This document shows positions 1 to 60,562 of a stretch of DNA of 64,000 nucleotides, one piece after another. The number at the start of each line of letters is the position of its first letter. Within the stretch, counting starts at the first letter, position 1. This stretch comes from a virus. A program made the translations under genes and the position numbers. Where the stretch lies: IMG/VR virus record IMGVR_UViG_3300031787_000016, positions 83,779-147,778 of that record; one strand, 5' to 3'. Under the pieces are notes generated by a model. That model was not told the DNA's origin and did not search any database. It worked only from the letters and a program-made list of their open reading frames with translations.

Positions 1-1870
1 CAACAAGTTCGTTGATAGCATGGTCTGGGTCGTAAGTTTCATCGAGGGTGTAGTCAGTTGAGTGTGGTTTGTAGAAATATAGTTGACCATTTTTGATGTA
101 AGGTACTGCCGCACCAAATCGCTTTTCTTTATCGGCTTGAGCCTTACCTCCCCACTCACTAGGTCTGAAAGGTACGATGTTTGGGAACTCAGCAGCTAGT
201 AGCCGCATCACTGCTTCTCCATTAGCTTTTGCCTCTACACCAATTTCAGCTTCAGGATACTTCTTGGCTAGTTTTTTGATAGCAGCCATTTGCCCCACAA
301 TATCCAGCTTAGCGCGAATACCATCGATGACATAATAGCTGTCTTCTTTTCTGCCCACTACAGCGCCCAGATTCCACGATGTAGACGCTTCTGATGCCGC
401 AAAGGTCAAATCCCACATGATGAGCATTGAATCCATCTTAGTTGGCTTCTGAGACACAATGCGAATATCTTTTTCATCAAGCGTGATACCCTTACCACCA
501 CCTGAAGGGTCTTGTTGAAATAATGTCTTGCGTCTGATTGGGTTGATTGTGTTGAGATAGCTAAGAGGTAAGCGCTTTTTGTCCATAAGCTCACCTTCAG
601 TCTTGCGTGGGTCATTCCAGCGCTCACCTAATGGAGAAAAATAGGTTTTGCGCTTGGCGAACTCGGCAGGTATACAAAGCTCGAAGAAGCCGTCCTCACC
701 TTTATATTTCTCAAACAGATGTGCAATCAAGTCATCATCACCAAGACGCTGACAAATAGCCATCTTGACATCAGTGTTGACATCATTACTACGACCGAAT
801 AGCTGGTCAGTTACCCAGTTGTTGCGCTCACGACGAATACGCTCATTTTGGTACATCGTTTCATCGATAATGTCATCGATAAGAAAGACAGTGCCTCCAT
901 TACCGATAATTCCAGTGTCAGGTGAGGAGATGTTGATATCACCGCTAGCTGTGTTGCTGATTTTCTTTTTGGTTGATTGGTCTTCTGCTAAACGAAAAGA
1001 ATATGTTGGACTATCGAGCTTACAGTACCTATCCCCATATCTAGGGTTGTTAATGATGTTTCGACTTTTAATTAAGTTGGTAGTGCAAAGGTCAAGCTTG
1101 TGTGAGGACAGAAAAAAACGTTCTTCAGGGGTAGTTATCCAACGAAAAGCTGGTGTGCAAATAGATGCGATGCTTGTCTTGCTGTTGTGGCTGACTATAC
1201 CGTTAGCTAGAATGAAATTGTCCCATTTATTCACAGAAATGTCGTAAACTCTGTGAGTACCAATGTATGCCAGTGAGATAATTTTGGAGTGATACTCTTC
1301 AGATTCACTCTCGTTGCCTTTGCGCCTACGGTCATGCATTGAGATTTTATCGCCCAAACTAAGTTCACTTACATGACGATATCCTCGGTCAGTAAAGAAC
1401 CTGTGTTCCATAGTGGCTGTAACTGAATATCCAGTGTCAAGTCCAATACGATATGTCTCTTGGTACTTATTATCTAAGTTAGCTGTTACAGTACCTTCTA
1501 CTTTTATCTTTCGTTTGATATCAAATGAGGCAACTTTGTCGCCAACTTGTATTGCTTCGATTGGTTTAACAGAGCCGTCCCACATCCTTATTTCTGTGCC
1601 ACGTTTTAGGCAACTACGAGGAGAGACAGTGATTGCCAGTTTTCTTATTTGTCTTTTGAGCGCGGCTTCAATATGCTCAGCAATAATATCGATGTGCCAA
1701 TTACTTACTAGCGGAGTACCTTCATATAAATCCCAAGCCCAAGGTACAAAATGGCGAAGTTTTTTGCTTGCTTTTTCTGCCAACACATCGTCGAGCGCGT
1801 CACTCATCTTGCGAAGTTCGGCTTCGCTCATGTCGTTGGAATTTTTCTGTGTCGTTCGAGAGATTGCCAT
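1..1870 (-). CDS. terL: Terminase large subunit (TerL), intein-containing, C-terminus off window
   Basis: ATPase-nuclease motor that cuts and pumps phage DNA into the procapsid. The reading frame is open from the ATG at 1870 to the window edge. The host protein is split by an intein; after splicing, the P-loop would read SPRS-SKTS (residues 83-86 joined to 230 onward). Walker B is VFLIDDII. The C-terminal nuclease (RNase H fold) shows LIMWDLTFA, YYVIDGI and the family pattern IGVEAKANGEAV. Everything before the intein resembles the usual N-terminal lead-in (HFVPWAWDLYEG). Minus strand, like the other virion-related genes here. The stop codon lies outside the window. Identification is firm. 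Confidence 0.93.
   Translation of the reverse strand, partial: MAISRTTQKNSNDMSEAELRKMSDALDDVLAEKASKKLRHFVPWAWDLYEGTPLVSNWHIDIIAEHIEAALKRQIRKLAITVSPRSCLKRGTEIRMWDGSVKPIEAIQVGDKVASFDIKRKIKVEGTVTANLDNKYQETYRIGLDTGYSVTATMEHRFFTDRGYRHVSELSLGDKISMHDRRRKGNESESEEYHSKIISLAYIGTHRVYDISVNKWDNFILANGIVSHNSKTSIASICTPAFRWITTPEERFFLSSHKLDLCTTNLIKSRNIINNPRYGDRYCKLDSPTYSFRLAEDQSTKKKISNTASGDINISSPDTGIIGNGGTVFLIDDIIDETMYQNERIRRERNNWVTDQLFGRSNDVNTDVKMAICQRLGDDDLIAHLFEKYKGEDGFFELCIPAEFAKRKTYFSPLGERWNDPRKTEGELMDKKRLPLSYLNTINPIRRKTLFQQDPSGGGKGITLDEKDIRIVSQKPTKMDSMLIMWDLTFAASEASTSWNLGAVVGRKEDSYYVIDGIRAKLDIVGQMAAIKKLAKKYPEAEIGVEAKANGEAVMRLLAAEFPNIVPFRPSEWGGKAQADKEKRFGAAVPYIKNGQLYFYKPHSTDYTLDETYDPDHAINELV
1184..1612 (-). 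other. Mini-intein in the TerL Walker A motif (143 aa)
   Basis: The insert starts with Cys (CLKRGTEIRMWDGS, block A), carries a block B T-x-x-H (TMEH), has a block F-like stretch (HRVYDISVNKWDNFILANG) and ends in SHN followed by extein Ser. At 143 residues it has no room for a homing endonuclease domain, so it is a splicing-only mini-intein. It sits between SPRS and SKTS of the terminase P-loop, so the ATPase cannot work until splicing occurs. Inteins commonly sit at such invariant sites. All splicing residues appear present, so it is probably active. Confidence 0.92.
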
Positions 1871-1922
1871 AGATATGTATATCGTGATATATTGGGTAGT
1901 ATAGCATTCTGCCTAAACTCAC

Positions 1923-2252
1923 TTGGCTCGATTCAAAGTTCAAATTAAAGACAGTATACTCAAGCAGCCAGTCAAGCGCTACATTCCGCCTGAGACTATT
2001 GGTGTTCAGTTCTTGATTGACTTTGCTTTGTGCGATGCTAAGAATCCACTGACCATCGAGTACTTAAAGGTCATTATGCCATCAGAAAAGAATGTTGTGG
2101 CGGCTAATGCTGTGATGGTGTGGATAGTTCCGCATAAAAAACTTGACTTGAAGCTATATAGTCCGAAGCAGAGCGTGATAGAGTACATAGACAATAACCA
2201 AGTGCCTTACGGCGTGCAGAAAAAGGAAATCTTGAGAACTGATGAGCAATAA
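1923..2252 (+). CDS. Hypothetical protein, 109 aa
   Basis: Frame runs from a TTG at 1923 (an in-frame stop lies just upstream, so no earlier start exists) to 2252. It overlaps the start of the putative small terminase by 11 nt, which supports coupled translation. No clear ribosome binding site precedes the TTG. The sequence is basic at its N-terminus (FKVQIKDSILKQPVKRYIPP) and has no membrane segment. I do not recognise a family. Its position beside terminase genes suggests a packaging or head role, but that is only context. Confidence 0.55.
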   Translation: MARFKVQIKDSILKQPVKRYIPPETIGVQFLIDFALCDAKNPLTIEYLKVIMPSEKNVVAANAVMVWIVPHKKLDLKLYSPKQSVIEYIDNNQVPYGVQKKEILRTDEQ

Positions 2253-26183: not shown

Positions 26184-26525
26184 ATGACTGATAAACTTCC
26201 CTCAATAACTTATTGTCAAAAATGTGGTATCGCAAACATCGATGGCGTATTCCATTGGAGCTACAAGAATCGACCTACAACTCCTGAGCAAGTGTTGGCG
26301 AAAGTTTGTATTCCGACCGCAGGACATGGTGACAAGCAAAACGTACCTTGTCTCGCTAAGCAACTGCACGAATCTGATTTAGGGCTGCTGCAAAAGACAC
26401 CCGCAGAGTTACATGAGTTTGTTCGTGTCAACAACAACGCAATTGAGCTGGATTTACCTAATGACGAGTACTATTTAGAGATGGCAAAAAAATTGCTAGG
26501 AGATAGACCAGATGAGCAATCCTAA
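26184..26525 (+). CDS. Hypothetical zinc-binding-like protein, 113 aa
   Basis: YCQKCGIANIDGVFHWSYKNR starts a possible zinc ribbon, paired later with KVCIPTAGHGDKQNVPC. The C-terminus has an acidic helix. Overlaps the next gene by 14 nt. Not recognised. Confidence 0.58.
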   Translation: MTDKLPSITYCQKCGIANIDGVFHWSYKNRPTTPEQVLAKVCIPTAGHGDKQNVPCLAKQLHESDLGLLQKTPAELHEFVRVNNNAIELDLPNDEYYLEMAKKLLGDRPDEQS

Positions 26526-26703
26526 ATTCAAATTCAGTGTAGGACAACGTGTACGGTTTGGCAAACAAGCAAGCATCTACGAAGTGTACTCGCACATCGC
26601 ACCAGATGACGGCTCAGAGCATCAATACTATCTAAAGAGTGTTGTAACTACACCCAGCTACCTTCAGTGGTCACTGGAGAGCGATTTGAGTGCCGTTACT
26701 TAG
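26512..26703 (+). CDS. Hypothetical protein, 63 aa
   Basis: Contains FKFSVGQRVRFGKQASIYEV, an SH3-like start also seen in 27256-27648 (FKFAIGQAVYFIKNDKVQ), so these two share a small beta-barrel module. Ends by converging on the minus-strand gene (8-nt overlap). Confidence 0.6.
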   Translation: MSNPKFKFSVGQRVRFGKQASIYEVYSHIAPDDGSEHQYYLKSVVTTPSYLQWSLESDLSAVT

Positions 26704-30080: not shown

Positions 30081-30227
30081 ATGGCAGTATCTTTCTCTCG
30101 GACTGATTGTATGTGTTTAGTAACTGAAACTGAGTTTTGCCATGTAGATATCTGTCTTTGGATAGAGGCGCAGAAAAAGAAGTTGAGTTATATTAAAAGA
30201 GATGCAGCAATGCAGTGTAGCAAGTAA
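30081..30227 (+). CDS. Small Cys-rich protein, 48 aa
   Basis: Starts 1 nt after the previous stop with AAGGA upstream. FSRTDCMCLVTETEFCHVDICLWIEAQKKK: five Cys and a His that could hold a metal or disulphides. Followed by TAAGGAGGTGA, a strong SD-like string with no clear ORF. Confidence 0.5.
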   Translation: MAVSFSRTDCMCLVTETEFCHVDICLWIEAQKKKLSYIKRDAAMQCSK

Positions 30228-30263
30228 GTAAGGAGGTGACTCTTCAATTACCAGCTAAACAAA

Positions 30264-30528
30264 GCAAAGAGGTTGCGGTCTTAGGGTTCCCCTCTTTGCA
30301 ATCTGGATATTTGCAAAATAGTCAATATGCAATCTGTGGGCGTGTTCCTGCTAACCCCAGCCGCAACTTGAGCCTAAGTAATCAAGCTCTGCGAAGTTGG
30401 GTCTAGGACAGGGCTATCCAGCAACAACCCAAGGTGTAGGTGCATATCGGCACGGGCTGAGGAACCTAACCACCCACTCTGTAGTGTATTGTTTTTAGGT
30501 TTTACAATACATGAAGCAGCAAGTAAGC
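30264..30528 (+). ncRNA. Candidate structured non-coding RNA
   Basis: About 450 nt here lack a gene but are unusually GC-rich for this genome and fold in register: GCAAAGAGG with CCTCTTTGC (30264-30299); CAACTT-GAGC with GCTC-AAGTTG near 30362-30402; GGGT with ACCC; GTGC-ATATCG-GCAC; and TGTATTGT with ACAATACA (30485-30511). The block containing CCTGCTAACCCCAGCCGC loosely resembles the conserved start of HEARO/omega RNAs of IscB systems, but no iscB gene is adjacent, so the class is open. A short terminator follows at 30633. Confidence 0.5.
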
Positions 30529-30632
30529 TCTAGTCTTAGGGGAGAAGAGAAGTCATGAATCCGTTACTCCTTCGACATAACCTTACCACTTGGAGACAAT
30601 TAGCACCATCTAAGATAACCTCAACGAGAAGC

Positions 30633-30662
30633 GCCCCTTGAACATTGGTTAGGGGCATTTTT
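30633..30662 (+). terminator. Intrinsic terminator
   Basis: GCCCCT pairs with AGGGGC around 12 nt and is followed by ATTTTTAT. Ends the structured RNA/preceding transcript just before the gene at 30680. Confidence 0.75.
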
Positions 30663-30679
30663 ATATCTAAACTTAACAA

Positions 30680-31935: not shown

Positions 31936-31936
31936 C

Positions 31937-31950
31937 TTTAGATAGATACA
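31937..31950 (+). promoter_or_regulatory. Leader motif TTTAGATAGATACA
   Basis: One of six intergenic copies of a GATAGATAC-type string, each about 55-75 nt before a start codon (here 32007) and just after a gene end. Probable phage promoter element or antitermination/processing site. Confidence 0.5.
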
Positions 31951-32807: not shown

Positions 32808-32816
32808 ATATCTGTC

Positions 32817-32830
32817 TTTAGGTAGATGCG
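32817..32830 (+). promoter_or_regulatory. Leader motif TTTAGGTAGATGCG
   Basis: Variant of the GATAGATAC motif, placed between the terminator at 32783 and the first permuted tRNA. If the motif is a promoter, it drives the tRNA block. Confidence 0.4.
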
Positions 32831-32886
32831 AGGTAGTAAGTTGGTCGAGTATATTAATTAAAGAGCGTAAGTTAAAGCTTATACAA

Positions 32887-32979
32887 CACTTCTAAACCGC
32901 AGTCTTGTTCGTTCGAGCCGAACTTCTCCGACTATCGGAGGGTGATGTAACTGGTAAACATCTGGGGTCTAGAGAAGTG
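32887..32979 (+). tRNA. Circularly permuted tRNA gene 1 (possible anticodon CUA)
   Basis: Order is 3-prime half then 5-prime half. T-arm: GTTCG/CGAAC (32907-32911, 32919-32923) with loop TTCGAGC. Then acceptor strand TTCTCCG (32924-32930), A, linker CTAT, acceptor strand CGGAGGG (32936-32942; two G-U) and D-arm ATGT/ACAT with loop AACTGGTAA (32945-32961). The two ends pair: TGGGG (32963-32967) with CCGCA (one G-G), extended by TAGA/TCTA and AGTG/CACT. A 5-nt variable loop GTCTT fits canonical numbering. If the anticodon loop comes from the 3-prime half it is TTCTAAA, anticodon CTA. No CCA is encoded. Confidence 0.75.
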
Positions 32980-33052
32980 GCTCAATCTGAAAGTGAAATT
33001 GAAGTTATTGCTCCAAGTTCATTTTAAAACCTTCCCTTTTGTATCGACGTTT

Positions 33053-33151
33053 CAAGCTTAATAATTAGCGATGTGAGTTCAATTCTCATTTCTGCCTTAT
33101 CATGGCAGAATCAGTATAATGGTAATACGGCTAATATAAGTCTAAAGCTTG
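33053..33151 (+). tRNA. Circularly permuted tRNA gene 2
   Basis: Same inverted order as gene 1. T-arm GTGAG/CTCAT (33073-33089) with loop TTCAATT, acceptor strand TTCTGCC (33090-33096), T, linker, acceptor strand GGCAGAA (33104-33110; perfect 7 bp), D-arm GTAT/ATAC with loop AATGGTA (33114-33128), anticodon stem GCTAAT (33130-33135) with ATTAGC (33064-33069). The outer ends pair as CAAGCTT (33053-33059) with AAGCTTG (33145-33151). Anticodon is ambiguous because the splice point is unknown. Connector between acceptor and D-arm is three nt, one more than usual. No CCA encoded. Confidence 0.78.
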
Positions 33152-33234
33152 ACCACAGGATATTAACAAGGCAAAATCAGGAAGTAAAATATAAGTACTG
33201 TACACCTATATGTTTTAGTCGTACAAACTAAAAA

Positions 33235-33265
33235 GAACCCTCGCATCGGATATTTGCGGGGGTTC
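33235..33265 (+). terminator. Strong 11-bp hairpin ending the tRNA block
   Basis: GAACCCTCGCA pairs with TGCGGGGGTTC (one T-G) around a 9-nt loop. No T tract follows, so it may be a processing site or a factor-aided terminator for the tRNA transcript. Confidence 0.6.
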
Positions 33266-33276
33266 ACTATATGTAC

Positions 33277-33290
33277 CTTAAGATAGATAC
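33277..33290 (+). promoter_or_regulatory. Leader motif CTTAAGATAGATAC
   Basis: GATAGATAC copy 55 nt before the ATG at 33345, directly after the hairpin that ends the tRNA block, as expected of a promoter. Confidence 0.5.
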
Positions 33291-33344
33291 AATCATCACC
33301 ACAACCCTCTACACTTGTAAAACAAACACAAAACAACTAATCAC

Positions 33345-34516: not shown

Positions 34517-35230
34517 ATGACAATAGGGATATACTACATAACTAATGTAGTCAATGGCAAGTATTATATCGGTTCTAGTCTTCATATTGAACGTAGATTT
34601 AAAGAGCATTTAAATGGACTAAATAAAAACAAGCACCATAATCGTTCTCTGCAATTCGAGTGGAATAGTTTTGGTCAATCTTCGTTTGTATTCTCGATAG
34701 TAGACAAATTATCTTCAGCTAACGCAGCTACGGTGTTTTCATTAGAGCAATTTTATTTAGATGCTGTTAAGGATTGGGCTTCGGTTTACAATATATCAAG
34801 AGACACTACAAATTGGGTATTAGGAATAAAATATAAAGACTCAAACTACTACTCTTGGAATAAAGAAAAGAAGGTATTTGTTGTAGCCTACAGAGTTAAT
34901 GGAATCCAATTGAAATTCGGGTATTTTGAAGATGAGGAAGACGCTAAATGTAAAGTAGACTATCTAAAGTCACTTACAAAATTACAACTTATTGAGTACC
35001 ATAAAAATATTGACCCATGTAAACTTACTAGGAAAAATAATAACAACTTGGTAATTATGGGAGAGGCTAGGCGGAGGTCTTTCAAGGGGTATTCTTTTGA
35101 CAAGAAAAGAAATGTTTGGAGGGTAAGGTTTCCCGTAAAGGGTAAAACAGCCAACTTTGGAAGTTTTAAGTTTGAGAAAGATGCACAAAAGAAGGTTGAA
35201 GAAATTATTTCTAATGGTAGATGTAATTAA
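34517..35230 (+). CDS. GIY-YIG homing endonuclease with AP2-like repeats, A
   Basis: 237 aa. GIYYITNVVNGKYYIGSS is the GIY...YIG core, followed by RRFKEHLNGL and the catalytic E in LEQFYLDAV. The C-terminal half has two AP2-like DNA-binding units (FVVAYRVNGIQLKFGYFEDEEDA; WRVRFPVKGKTANFGSFKFEKDA). Same architecture as 60676-61572. It ends 30 nt before the permuted tmRNA, so the tmRNA may be its home site. Confidence 0.88.
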   Translation: MTIGIYYITNVVNGKYYIGSSLHIERRFKEHLNGLNKNKHHNRSLQFEWNSFGQSSFVFSIVDKLSSANAATVFSLEQFYLDAVKDWASVYNISRDTTNWVLGIKYKDSNYYSWNKEKKVFVVAYRVNGIQLKFGYFEDEEDAKCKVDYLKSLTKLQLIEYHKNIDPCKLTRKNNNNLVIMGEARRRSFKGYSFDKKRNVWRVRFPVKGKTANFGSFKFEKDAQKKVEEIISNGRCN

Positions 35231-35260
35231 TGGTAGTTGTGTTAGTATATAAGTGTTATT

Positions 35261-35495
35261 GAGAGTTTAGGTACTTCCTTGGCTGGACAAGAGTTCGACT
35301 CTCTTGCCTTACACTTCAAGTGAGGCTAACGGTTTCGACAGGTAAGGAAGCCTAGAACACGCTGGGACTTTACGAGCGACAGCTAAAATAGCGAAAAAAT
35401 AAACGTCAACAACATCGTTTCTTTTTCTAGGAAAGCTACCCCTGTAGCCGCCTAGACCACCCGAAAGACAGTCCTAAAAACGCTGTCTTTCTCTA
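35261..35495 (+). ncRNA. ssrA: Circularly permuted (two-piece) tmRNA
   Basis: Acceptor piece first: T-arm AAGAG/CTCTT with loop TTCGACT (35289-35305) and strand GCCTTAC (35306-35312), discriminator A, 6-nt linker, then coding piece starting GTGAGGC (35320-35326), a 7-bp acceptor with one G-U. GGTTTCGACAG is the conserved tmRNA D-region. P2 forms from AAGGAAG/CTTCCTT and CCTAGA/TTTAGG across the two pieces. The tag frame 35405-35455 gives VNNIVSFSRKATPVAA, with a Val resume codon where Ala is usual. tmRNA frees stalled ribosomes and marks the protein for ClpXP. No CCA encoded. Confidence 0.93.
35463..35491 (+). terminator. Hairpin at the tmRNA 3-prime end
   Basis: GAAAGACAG and CTGTCTTTC form a perfect 9-bp stem with an 11-nt loop, then TCTATAT. 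Terminates the tmRNA transcript or forms its last stem. Confidence 0.75.
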
Positions 35496-35510
35496 TATCT
35501 GGAGATAATT

Positions 35511-35732
35511 ATGAGAACAACTTGCGGTTTTCGCTTCCAAGGTCACTACGTCTACCGCCAAATATTCCCGAACGGTCGCTACAAAATAATGGTGTGGGTT
35601 GCCTCCAATCCCCCAGAAGAAGAGTCATGTGCTGATGTTGCTTTTTGTGGTGACTCTCATGTAAAATGTATGACTAAATTAAAAGAATGGCTTGAAATCA
35701 ACAAAGATTGGGTAAACAAAACAGATGAGTAA
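35511..35732 (+). CDS. Hypothetical protein, 73 aa
   Basis: GGAGATAATT precedes the ATG. CGFRFQGHYVYRQIFPNGRYKIMVWVASNPP is beta-rich, followed by a Cys-containing helix. Overlaps the next gene. Unknown. Confidence 0.6.
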   Translation: MRTTCGFRFQGHYVYRQIFPNGRYKIMVWVASNPPEEESCADVAFCGDSHVKCMTKLKEWLEINKDWVNKTDE

Positions 35733-59194: not shown

Positions 59195-59429
59195 ATTACC
59201 ACCACGATTCAAGATTTTCCACAATGTCTCTGAAGATTATTACTTCATTAAAGAACGATTCTGTTTCTTTTGGTACAGGACAGAAAGGGATATTATTGCT
59301 TACGATGGTTCTACAGTAATAACTCATTACGAAAGCGTTGAAGCTGCCGAAACTGCAATCAATCAATGGCTCCGTAACGAAAAACAATCCAAAATTCCCG
59401 ACACAATCAACCTAGTGAAAGAACTATGA
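59187..59429 (+). CDS. Hypothetical protein, 80 aa
   Basis: IKLPPRFKIFHNVSEDYYFIKERFCFFWYRTERDIIAYDGS is beta-rich and aromatic, then a C-terminal helix. Overlaps the RNA ligase by 4 nt (ATGA), so it is translated with it and could be an accessory. Not recognised. Confidence 0.6.
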   Translation: MIKLPPRFKIFHNVSEDYYFIKERFCFFWYRTERDIIAYDGSTVITHYESVEAAETAINQWLRNEKQSKIPDTINLVKEL

Positions 59430-60562
59430 CCAACACCATTGCCCCTGTCGAAATCGTAACAATCTCCCGCATCATCCCTATCTACAAAAATGGCGAAGAA
59501 GCGTCGTCCATTCAAGTTGTCAACCTCAACTTCAGTAATGGAGACGAGTGCGGCTATAATGTCGTCTCGCAAAAGGGCATCTACCAAGTAGGTTCCAAGG
59601 CAGTCTACATTCAGCCCGACTACTGTTTGCCCGACTCACCTCTGTTTGCAAGTTTCACAGCCCCTAACGGCGACCCTAACAAATCTCGACTTGGCAAAAA
59701 CAATCGCATTCGAGCGCTCAAGTTCAATTTCAGTTTCGAGAACAGTTCTGACCCAATTTACTCTGTCGGTATCTTACTCAACACAAATGAGCTTCCAAGC
59801 GAATTGTTGGCGGCTGAAGACCTTGCAGCAGCATTGGGCATTACTAAGTATGAAGAGCCAGAGAAAGGCGCTACAGGACTAACTAGAGGCACACTACCTT
59901 CTTTTCTGTACTCCACAGATGAAGAAAACTGCGCTAACCTCAAATCTCACATTAATCGGGTTCTTGCGAGTGGGGCAGAAGTTGCATACACTATCAAAGT
60001 TGATGGAAGCTCTTTTACCGAGTATTTCAAGAAGGATGTCGAAGGTAACTGGTACACTGGTATCTGTTCTCGTTCACTGGAAAAGAAAATCACTGACGAC
60101 ACTGCTGATAGTTGGGTCAAGTTGGCTAAGTCTTCTGGTCTGTACGAACGTGGTATGGAATACTGCAAAAAGCACAACGTCGAACTCGCTTTTCGTGGTG
60201 AAATCTATGGTCAGGGTTTGAAAGGAAGTGGTAACAAGCTGAATCCTCATGCTCAGTTGAAGCAAGGACTAATTCTTTTCGGTGTTGATGATTTGGCGAG
60301 CGGTTTTGCAACTCGAATCCATTATGGACAACCTCACAATCTCGAAATTATTTGTCATGAGCTAAAACTCCAATACACTCCAGCAAGACTTTTCTTTCAA
60401 TTACATCCTAGAAATTACGATGAACTTATTTCATTTGCTTCTGATGTTTTTAAAAGAGAGAAAGAGGCTGGTCGAGTCATTGAAGGTATTGTAGTTCGTA
60501 CACTTTACTCAAACGATTTGTCGGTCAAGGTCATGAACCCAGAATATGACAGCAAAAAGTAA
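59426..60562 (+). CDS. RNA ligase, Rnl5/DraRnl-like
   Basis: 378 aa. Nucleotidyltransferase motifs: I TIKVDGSSF (Lys191 that carries AMP), Ia SRSL, III/IIIa AFRGEIYGQG (Glu259), IV EGIVVRT (Glu353), V SVKVMNPEY (Lys368). About 180 residues precede motif I and include an OB-like domain (GDECGYNVVSQKGIYQVGSKAVYIQ), the arrangement of Deinococcus Rnl (Rnl5). Such enzymes seal nicks with 3-OH and 5-phosphate ends. Candidate ligase for the two permuted tRNAs; also plausible for repairing host-cleaved tRNA. Confidence 0.88.
   Translation: MTNTIAPVEIVTISRIIPIYKNGEEASSIQVVNLNFSNGDECGYNVVSQKGIYQVGSKAVYIQPDYCLPDSPLFASFTAPNGDPNKSRLGKNNRIRALKFNFSFENSSDPIYSVGILLNTNELPSELLAAEDLAAALGITKYEEPEKGATGLTRGTLPSFLYSTDEENCANLKSHINRVLASGAEVAYTIKVDGSSFTEYFKKDVEGNWYTGICSRSLEKKITDDTADSWVKLAKSSGLYERGMEYCKKHNVELAFRGEIYGQGLKGSGNKLNPHAQLKQGLILFGVDDLASGFATRIHYGQPHNLEIICHELKLQYTPARLFFQLHPRNYDELISFASDVFKREKEAGRVIEGIVVRTLYSNDLSVKVMNPEYDSKK

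Follow-up and report, generated by a model that had tools for sequence, protein, structure and literature searches.

Two circularly permuted tRNA-like modules in a family of cyanobacterial phages, probably parts of one structured non-coding RNA

Results

Architecture of the element

The window, i.e., the whole stretch of 64,000 nt that was analysed (positions 83,779 to 147,778 of the IMG/VR record IMGVR_UViG_3300031787_000016), carries at 32887-33151 two circularly permuted tRNA-like modules that are flanked and connected by structured core segments. The following features were identified.

32850..32862, + strand: conserved TATATT -10-like box (by eye); probable transcription start region
32863..32884, + strand: upstream core with GAGC (partner GCTC at 32980-32983) and a GTAAG/CTTAT hairpin
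32887..32930, + strand: tRNA-like domain 1, 3' half (extension strand, anticodon-stem 3' strand, variable region, T-arm, 3' acceptor strand)
32907-32923, + strand: module 1 T-arm, GTTCG-TTCGAGC-CGAAC
32924-32930, + strand: module 1 3' acceptor strand, TTCTCCG
32931-32935, + strand: linker 1, ACTAT, discriminator A included; predicted cleavage zone for RNase P / tRNase Z
32936..32979, + strand: tRNA-like domain 1, 5' half (5' acceptor strand, D-arm, anticodon-stem 5' strand, extension AGAAGTG)
32936-32942, + strand: module 1 5' acceptor strand, CGGAGGG
32945-32961, + strand: module 1 D-arm
32980..33029, + strand: central core with GCTC and a hairpin at 32990-33025, apical UUGAAGUUAUUGCUCCAA invariant
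33030..33051, + strand: core, 5' strand of a long-range helix (CTTCC...TTTTGT) and TC(A/G)A(A/C)GTT internal loop
33052..33096, + strand: tRNA-like domain 2, 3' half (helix X strand, conserved UAA(U/C)AA, anticodon-stem strand, T-arm, 3' acceptor strand)
33073-33089, + strand: module 2 T-arm
33090-33096, + strand: module 2 3' acceptor strand, TTCTGCC
33097-33103, + strand: linker 2, TTATCAT, discriminator T included; predicted cleavage zone
33104..33152, + strand: tRNA-like domain 2, 5' half (5' acceptor strand, D-arm, anticodon-stem strand, conserved UAUAA...CUAA, helix X strand)
33104-33110, + strand: module 2 5' acceptor strand, GGCAGAA
33114-33128, + strand: module 2 D-arm
33153..33184, + strand: downstream core (92% identity) with invariant CCACAGGATATTAA; GCAAAA and GGAAG form the 3' strand of the long-range helix
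33235..33265, + strand: 3' hairpin whose loop contains GGAUA; the RNA probably ends in this region

An initial annotation of this DNA had described the order T-arm, acceptor strand, linker, acceptor strand and D-arm at both loci, and dissection of the sequence together with a covariance model (see below) confirms it. Both acceptor stems have the 7 bp that were claimed, i.e., 5 Watson-Crick and 2 G-U pairs in module 1 and 7 Watson-Crick pairs in module 2. The reported linker lengths of 4-6 nt fit as well: they are 4 and 6 nt without the discriminator base and 5 and 7 nt when it is included. In homologues, the linker spans 5-7 nt in module 1 and 7-11 nt in module 2. CCA is not encoded in the modules.

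The anticodon-arm halves pair across the outside, as had been stated. That is, the outer strands of both modules form stems resembling pairs 27-31/39-43 that are prolonged by extension helices (CACTTCT/AGAAGTG in module 1, TCAAGCTT/AAGCTTGA in module 2). In module 2 of the window, an asymmetric internal loop of 5 x 9 nt separates the anticodon stem from helix X. The 5' strand of the long-range helix (33030..33051) has its partner at 33171-33184, with compensatory changes in Pam2 and the window. The fold of the whole window element has a z-score of -3.88.

A TATATT/TATACT box is found by eye about 10 nt 5' of GAGC in 7/7 aligned phages; a promoter scan of the + strand did not call the box at 32850..32862. 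Likewise, a terminator scan called no T-run terminator at the 3' end of the element.

Detection of the permuted modules

Standard searches miss the modules in their native order. ARAGORN reported a tmRNA in the window and neither module, and the sole Rfam report was a permuted tmRNA at 35252-35455. Once the halves are put into canonical order, a check that the initial annotation had proposed, ARAGORN recognises both window modules as tRNA. Over all phages carrying the element, 9/14 reordered constructs were recognised versus 0/5000 constructs from random places.

We also used a covariance model derived from 15 ordinary tRNAs from unrelated loci that were permuted in silico. Within the 64-kb window, module 2 was its sole significant match (E=3e-8), while module 1 scored 24.8 bits with filters switched off. 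All 14 modules of seven phages were detected, with a top score of 52.3 bits in Pam2. Since the model also matches ordinary tandem tRNA arrays, acceptor complementarity is the decisive point.

A motif scanner applied to both strands of 3.5 Mb gave 28 matches. The 26 with a D-arm are all located inside this element, i.e., two per phage with some phages represented more than once. For the almost complete sequences of G000, Pam2 and PA-SR01, short-linker modules comprise the element's two per genome plus the permuted tmRNA of the window's phage; the few long-linker matches in these three look like chance.

Distribution among phages

A BLAST comparison with 50,697 phage records yielded real matches only in the Pseudanabaena phages Pam2 and PA-SR01, both cultured. 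Their annotation lists no tRNA at the element, and the tRNAs named in the publications on these two phages are all others. Scans of IMG/VR added four further distinct versions of the element as well as a near copy of the window's, such that it is present in the window and six further distinct phages. All seven belong to a single lineage within which the element defines a family of cyanobacterial phages, and the phage origin given by the initial annotation is supported. Domain order is the same in 7/7 phages: upstream core, module 1, central core, module 2, downstream core.

A search with a 16-17-nt core motif matched 96 viral and 98 bacterial/archaeal stretches. Matches outside the lineage are apparently due to chance, because the scanner found no modules at the other loci examined. 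A profile search with the neighbouring DUF7873 protein provided no additional phages. Searching the phage collection with the reordered modules returned only the element itself, i.e., no recent donor tRNA. We also considered the phages' own tRNA-Gly as the origin of module 2 and rejected it: tRNA-Gly(TCC) of the window, Pam2 and PA-SR01 is not closely similar to this module. Ordinary tRNA genes, including tRNA clusters, occur elsewhere in these phages.

Covariation

Compensatory changes in related phages had been set beforehand as a test by which the permuted structure could be refuted, and such changes are abundant. For the acceptor and T-stems, we took the pairing from a model-based alignment, since MAFFT misplaced the acceptor of module 2 in three phages owing to differing linker lengths. 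Here, 162/162 cells are paired and 12/12 pairs show two-sided changes. The covariation score of this alignment, which includes three weaker rows that are not element modules, is 0.907, compared with 0.218 when shuffled and at most 0.21 when slid; a shift by one column is enough to make it collapse. Stems pair fully within each phage, while strands mixed between phages pair to 53-70%.

Over the whole element, 93.1% of the cells are paired, and 38 pairs show two-sided changes versus 23.4 in shuffles (0/500 shuffles). Two-sided changes are found at 6/8 pairs of helix X beside module 2, at 8/10 pairs of the 3' hairpin (33235..33265) and at two pairs of the long-range helix. The helices of the upstream core are 100% paired and show almost no variation; the hairpin stem of the central core is paired to 96%, and its apical segment is identical in 7 phages. 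As GAGC/GCUC and the greater part of the core hairpin are near invariant, their pairing is supported by folding and not by covariation.

These data bear on the reading that the locus consists of decayed tandem tRNA genes or of chance complementarity. The tRNA gene clusters of these phages and the response of the covariance model to tandem arrays would suit it. Against this, acceptor strands co-vary within modules across seven phages and are 100% paired, and there are exactly two modules per phage with none elsewhere in three nearly whole genomes. We reject this reading on the grounds of covariation and scanner specificity, leaving it a negligible probability. The two circularly permuted tRNA-like modules at 32887-33151 are confirmed and chance is excluded.

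One RNA or two decoding tRNA genes

The initial annotation spoke of two permuted tRNA genes. The permuted tRNA-like structures stand; that they are separate genes giving joined, decoding tRNAs is not supported, based on conservation and on the decoding end.

With regard to conservation, the connecting segments are 91-92% identical between phages (upstream core 92%, central core 91%) while the tRNA bodies reach 62-70%. With regard to the decoding end, the opening point shifts. In four phages, module 1 is Leu-like with an intact anticodon arm inside its 5' half and is permuted in the variable arm, with a 9-nt loop. In Pam2, module 1 is without an anticodon arm, and in the window and L008 it opens in the anticodon loop and carries a 7-bp extension. 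The anticodon stems of module 2 are weak in L008 and L009, and for module 2 of Pam2 and L010 we found no join that gives U33. For module 1 of the window and L008, a join with a 7-nt loop (UUCUAAA, anticodon CUA) is conceivable; the remaining candidate joins nearly all have A34. Across the seven phages, joining thus did not consistently yield U33 and a usable anticodon in a 7-nt loop.

Because the connecting segments are better conserved, the opening point shifts and decoding loops are not kept, we interpret the locus as one RNA and not as two tRNA genes. That is, both modules are probably parts of a larger structured non-coding RNA of about 410 nt (window about 32860-33270). The sequence comparison shows that tRNA bodies were exchanged among the phages, with the decoding end eroded and the acceptor/T/D part retained. 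The modules look like non-decoding tRNA-like domains, as in tmRNA.

We also weighed whether the modules are genuine permuted tRNA genes, whose outer ends would be joined by a core ribozyme, or by an endonuclease together with a phage RNA ligase, before the resulting circle is opened at the acceptor. They share the permuted order with algal and archaeal genes (PMC3978253), there is a phage gene for an RNA ligase of the DraRnl/NgrRnl type (window 59426-60562; in 5/6 phage records), and the CUA loop of the window and L008 could be a product of such joining. We nevertheless regard this as quite unlikely given the conservation pattern, the want of a U33 join common to all phages, the arm loss in Pam2, the four 9-nt loops and the ordinary tRNA genes elsewhere in these phages. 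In addition, inspection of the junctions revealed no bulge-helix-bulge and no conserved 3-4-3 motif, and RtcB is absent in the six phage records searched. On the latter two points, i.e., the motif judged by eye and RtcB in six records, we reject splicing of the algal type.

In a variant, each module would have its outer ends joined by the core acting as a new ribozyme, i.e., a natural permuted intron-exon arrangement with protein-free circular tRNA-like intermediates. We consider this very unlikely. The element has no Rfam intron match and no P7 recognisable by eye; a split group I core may, however, escape the model. The decoding-loop data make the ribozyme reading unlikely, while joined but non-decoding tRNA-like products would be compatible with them.

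Neighbouring features

The DNA around the element contains further features, listed here as observations in their own right. A second structured, ORF-poor and conserved region is located at 30140-30670 of the window (L008 1900-2720, L011 2300-3200, L002 1145-2680) and measures about 0.5 kb in the window; in Pam2 it is as long as 1.5 kb. It has no credible Rfam match, and among phage records similarity was found only to Pam2 and PA-SR01. In L008, visual inspection shows two tRNA-like domains of canonical order, with about 65-100 nt in place of the anticodon arm; in L011, it shows two tRNA matches. This region is possibly a new giant phage non-coding RNA.

Permuted tmRNA genes are present at 35220-35546 of the window and at 1457-1791 of L210, with tags VNNIVSFSRKATPVAA and AKNQIVKFARKSTPVAVAV. 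The GIY-YIG homing endonuclease gene at 34517-35230 of the window ends within the called start of the tmRNA gene. In L210, a permuted-tmRNA-like remnant (about 840-1470, by eye) is split by an HNH-type gene and lies directly 5' of the intact permuted tmRNA. Elsewhere, a tRNA-Trp(CCA) gene resides inside the intervening sequence of a permuted tmRNA, between the acceptor strands (L211 1531-1780; G003 about 26452-26697); a tRNA-Ala at a like position was reported once, in a nominally archaeal genome (PMC11915505). In G002 and PA-SR01, the T-loop of the permuted tmRNA carries an insert of about 300 nt (L212 about 1190-1500; L207 about 1640-1950, reverse strand), which resembles a group I intron by eye and is without Rfam confirmation.

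Finally, a CTTTAGGTAGATGC-like element recurs in the window at about 32815-32830, 30150-30170, 33287-33300 and 31936-31950. It precedes both non-coding RNAs and genes and is possibly a phage promoter element.

Discussion

Proposed processing into three pieces

Our favoured explanation, to which we assign a somewhat better than even chance, is a structured phage non-coding RNA whose conserved core carries two permuted tRNA-like domains and which is processed into three pieces. The transcript would start near 32860. By analogy with permuted tmRNA, host RNase P would cut in front of both 5' acceptor strands, while the 3' acceptor strands would be finished by the CCA-adding enzyme together with tRNase Z or exonucleases. 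Such cuts would leave three pieces of about 70, 160 and 165 nt; base pairing in GAGC/GCUC, in helix X, in the long-range helix and in the anticodon/extension stems would keep them together. Each tRNA-like domain is tied to the core via its outer helices, and helix X of domain 2 co-varies. The product would have two mature tRNA-like acceptor ends, which probably act as tRNA mimics for processing, stability and possibly charging or EF-Tu binding, while the core would perform the specific job. No known cofactor is linked to the element.

The initial annotation had held that an unconventional maturation route is needed. This is not required, as ordinary tRNA end-processing, as for permuted tmRNA, would suffice. 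The permuted-tmRNA model matches in 6/6 phage records searched, 0.3-2.7 kb downstream of the element, although the family cut-off is passed only in the window's phage and the matches in Pam2 and G002 are weak. The linker of the window's tmRNA has 7 nt. Algal permuted tRNAs have intervening sequences down to 7-10 nt and are possibly opened by RNase P and tRNase Z, for which the top half of a tRNA is said to be sufficient (PMC3978253). Against this explanation, CCA is not encoded and linkers of 5-7 nt are short for cleavage. In the window and L008, moreover, A-U pairing is conceivable between the discriminator and the base 5' of module 1, and this may disfavour a clean RNase P cut.

The strongest rival is an uncut tRNA mimic, in which the acceptor loops stay closed and the RNA, with both tRNA shapes presented by the core, serves as a decoy or sponge for a host factor that binds tRNA (RNase P, EF-Tu or a tRNA-cleaving defence nuclease). 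The linkers of 5-11 nt and the lack of an encoded CCA agree with it, as does the finding that tRNA identity and anticodon vary while the L-shape is kept. On the other hand, the exact 7-bp acceptors of all modules and the free discriminator in most suit end processing, and permuted tmRNA, matched in all six records, is itself a processed RNA. We rate the closed-loop mimic as possible but unlikely.

A further reading takes the element as a second, derived tmRNA or a partner of tmRNA, in which a short tag frame in the core (AQSENEIEVIAPSSF-stop) would be translated after one end is charged. Its tRNA-like ends without decoding loops resemble tmRNA, and a short frame starting with GCU spans the core in several phages. 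The stop and the C-terminal residues of this frame are, however, lost in L010 and L011 (by eye), and the G3-U70 pair is absent. Moreover, the window already has a permuted tmRNA apart from the element, with a tag of its own; it scores 62.6 bits at 35252-35455, whereas the element has no Rfam tmRNA match. With no model match and no conserved tag end, we reject a second tmRNA as highly improbable.

Implications

A conserved phage RNA with two permuted tRNA-like domains would mean that bacteria-infecting viruses put tRNA bodies to new use, as end modules that can be swapped on a larger RNA. Permutation would then be maintainable without a splicing endonuclease, through ordinary tRNA end-processing. 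This raises the question of what purpose two tRNA-like ends on one RNA serve. Since Pam2 and PA-SR01 are cultured with their hosts, ends, pieces and charging are directly measurable.

Comparison with known systems

Natural permuted tRNA genes are described from algae and from a single archaeon, with maturation presumably by splicing endonucleases (PMC3978253). The genes of red and green algae and of Thermofilum pendens likewise place the 3' half first, have a 7-bp acceptor and have their processed ends at the acceptor; their intervening sequence is short as well, with 7-74 bp in the algal entries examined. While the algal/archaeal type relies on a bulge-helix-bulge, a splicing endonuclease and a ligase to produce decoding tRNAs, the motif was not seen in our element, no join is consistent, and the would-be 'intron' core is its most conserved part. 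Bacterial RNase P can bind permuted tRNAs, as known from artificial ones that served as probes of this enzyme (Nolan, Burke and Pace 1993, cited in PMC9433436); those are laboratory constructs and not natural genes. The initial annotation knew of no bacterial-virus precedent, and we found none for permuted or split tRNAs of phages in the open-licence literature; the papers retrieved deal with permuted tRNAs of algae and archaea and with permuted tmRNA of bacteria.

GOLLD and ROOL, the large ornate RNAs of phages, are far larger, and the tRNAs embedded in them are not described as permuted. An Rfam search of the element with E up to 10 gave five matches at chance level and no GOLLD, ROOL or other family.

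The permuted (two-piece) tmRNA (Rfam RF04321; cyanobacterial RF01851) likewise has its T-arm and 3' acceptor strand ahead of the 5' acceptor strand. It shares with the element a short intervening sequence, the lack of a decoding anticodon loop and the occurrence in the same phages. While tmRNA has one tRNA-like domain, a tag frame and a function with SmpB, the element has two domains with real D-arms, another core, no conserved tag and no Rfam match. A tRNA-like domain and permutation are thus each known; two permuted domains on one conserved core are, as far as we found, a new arrangement.
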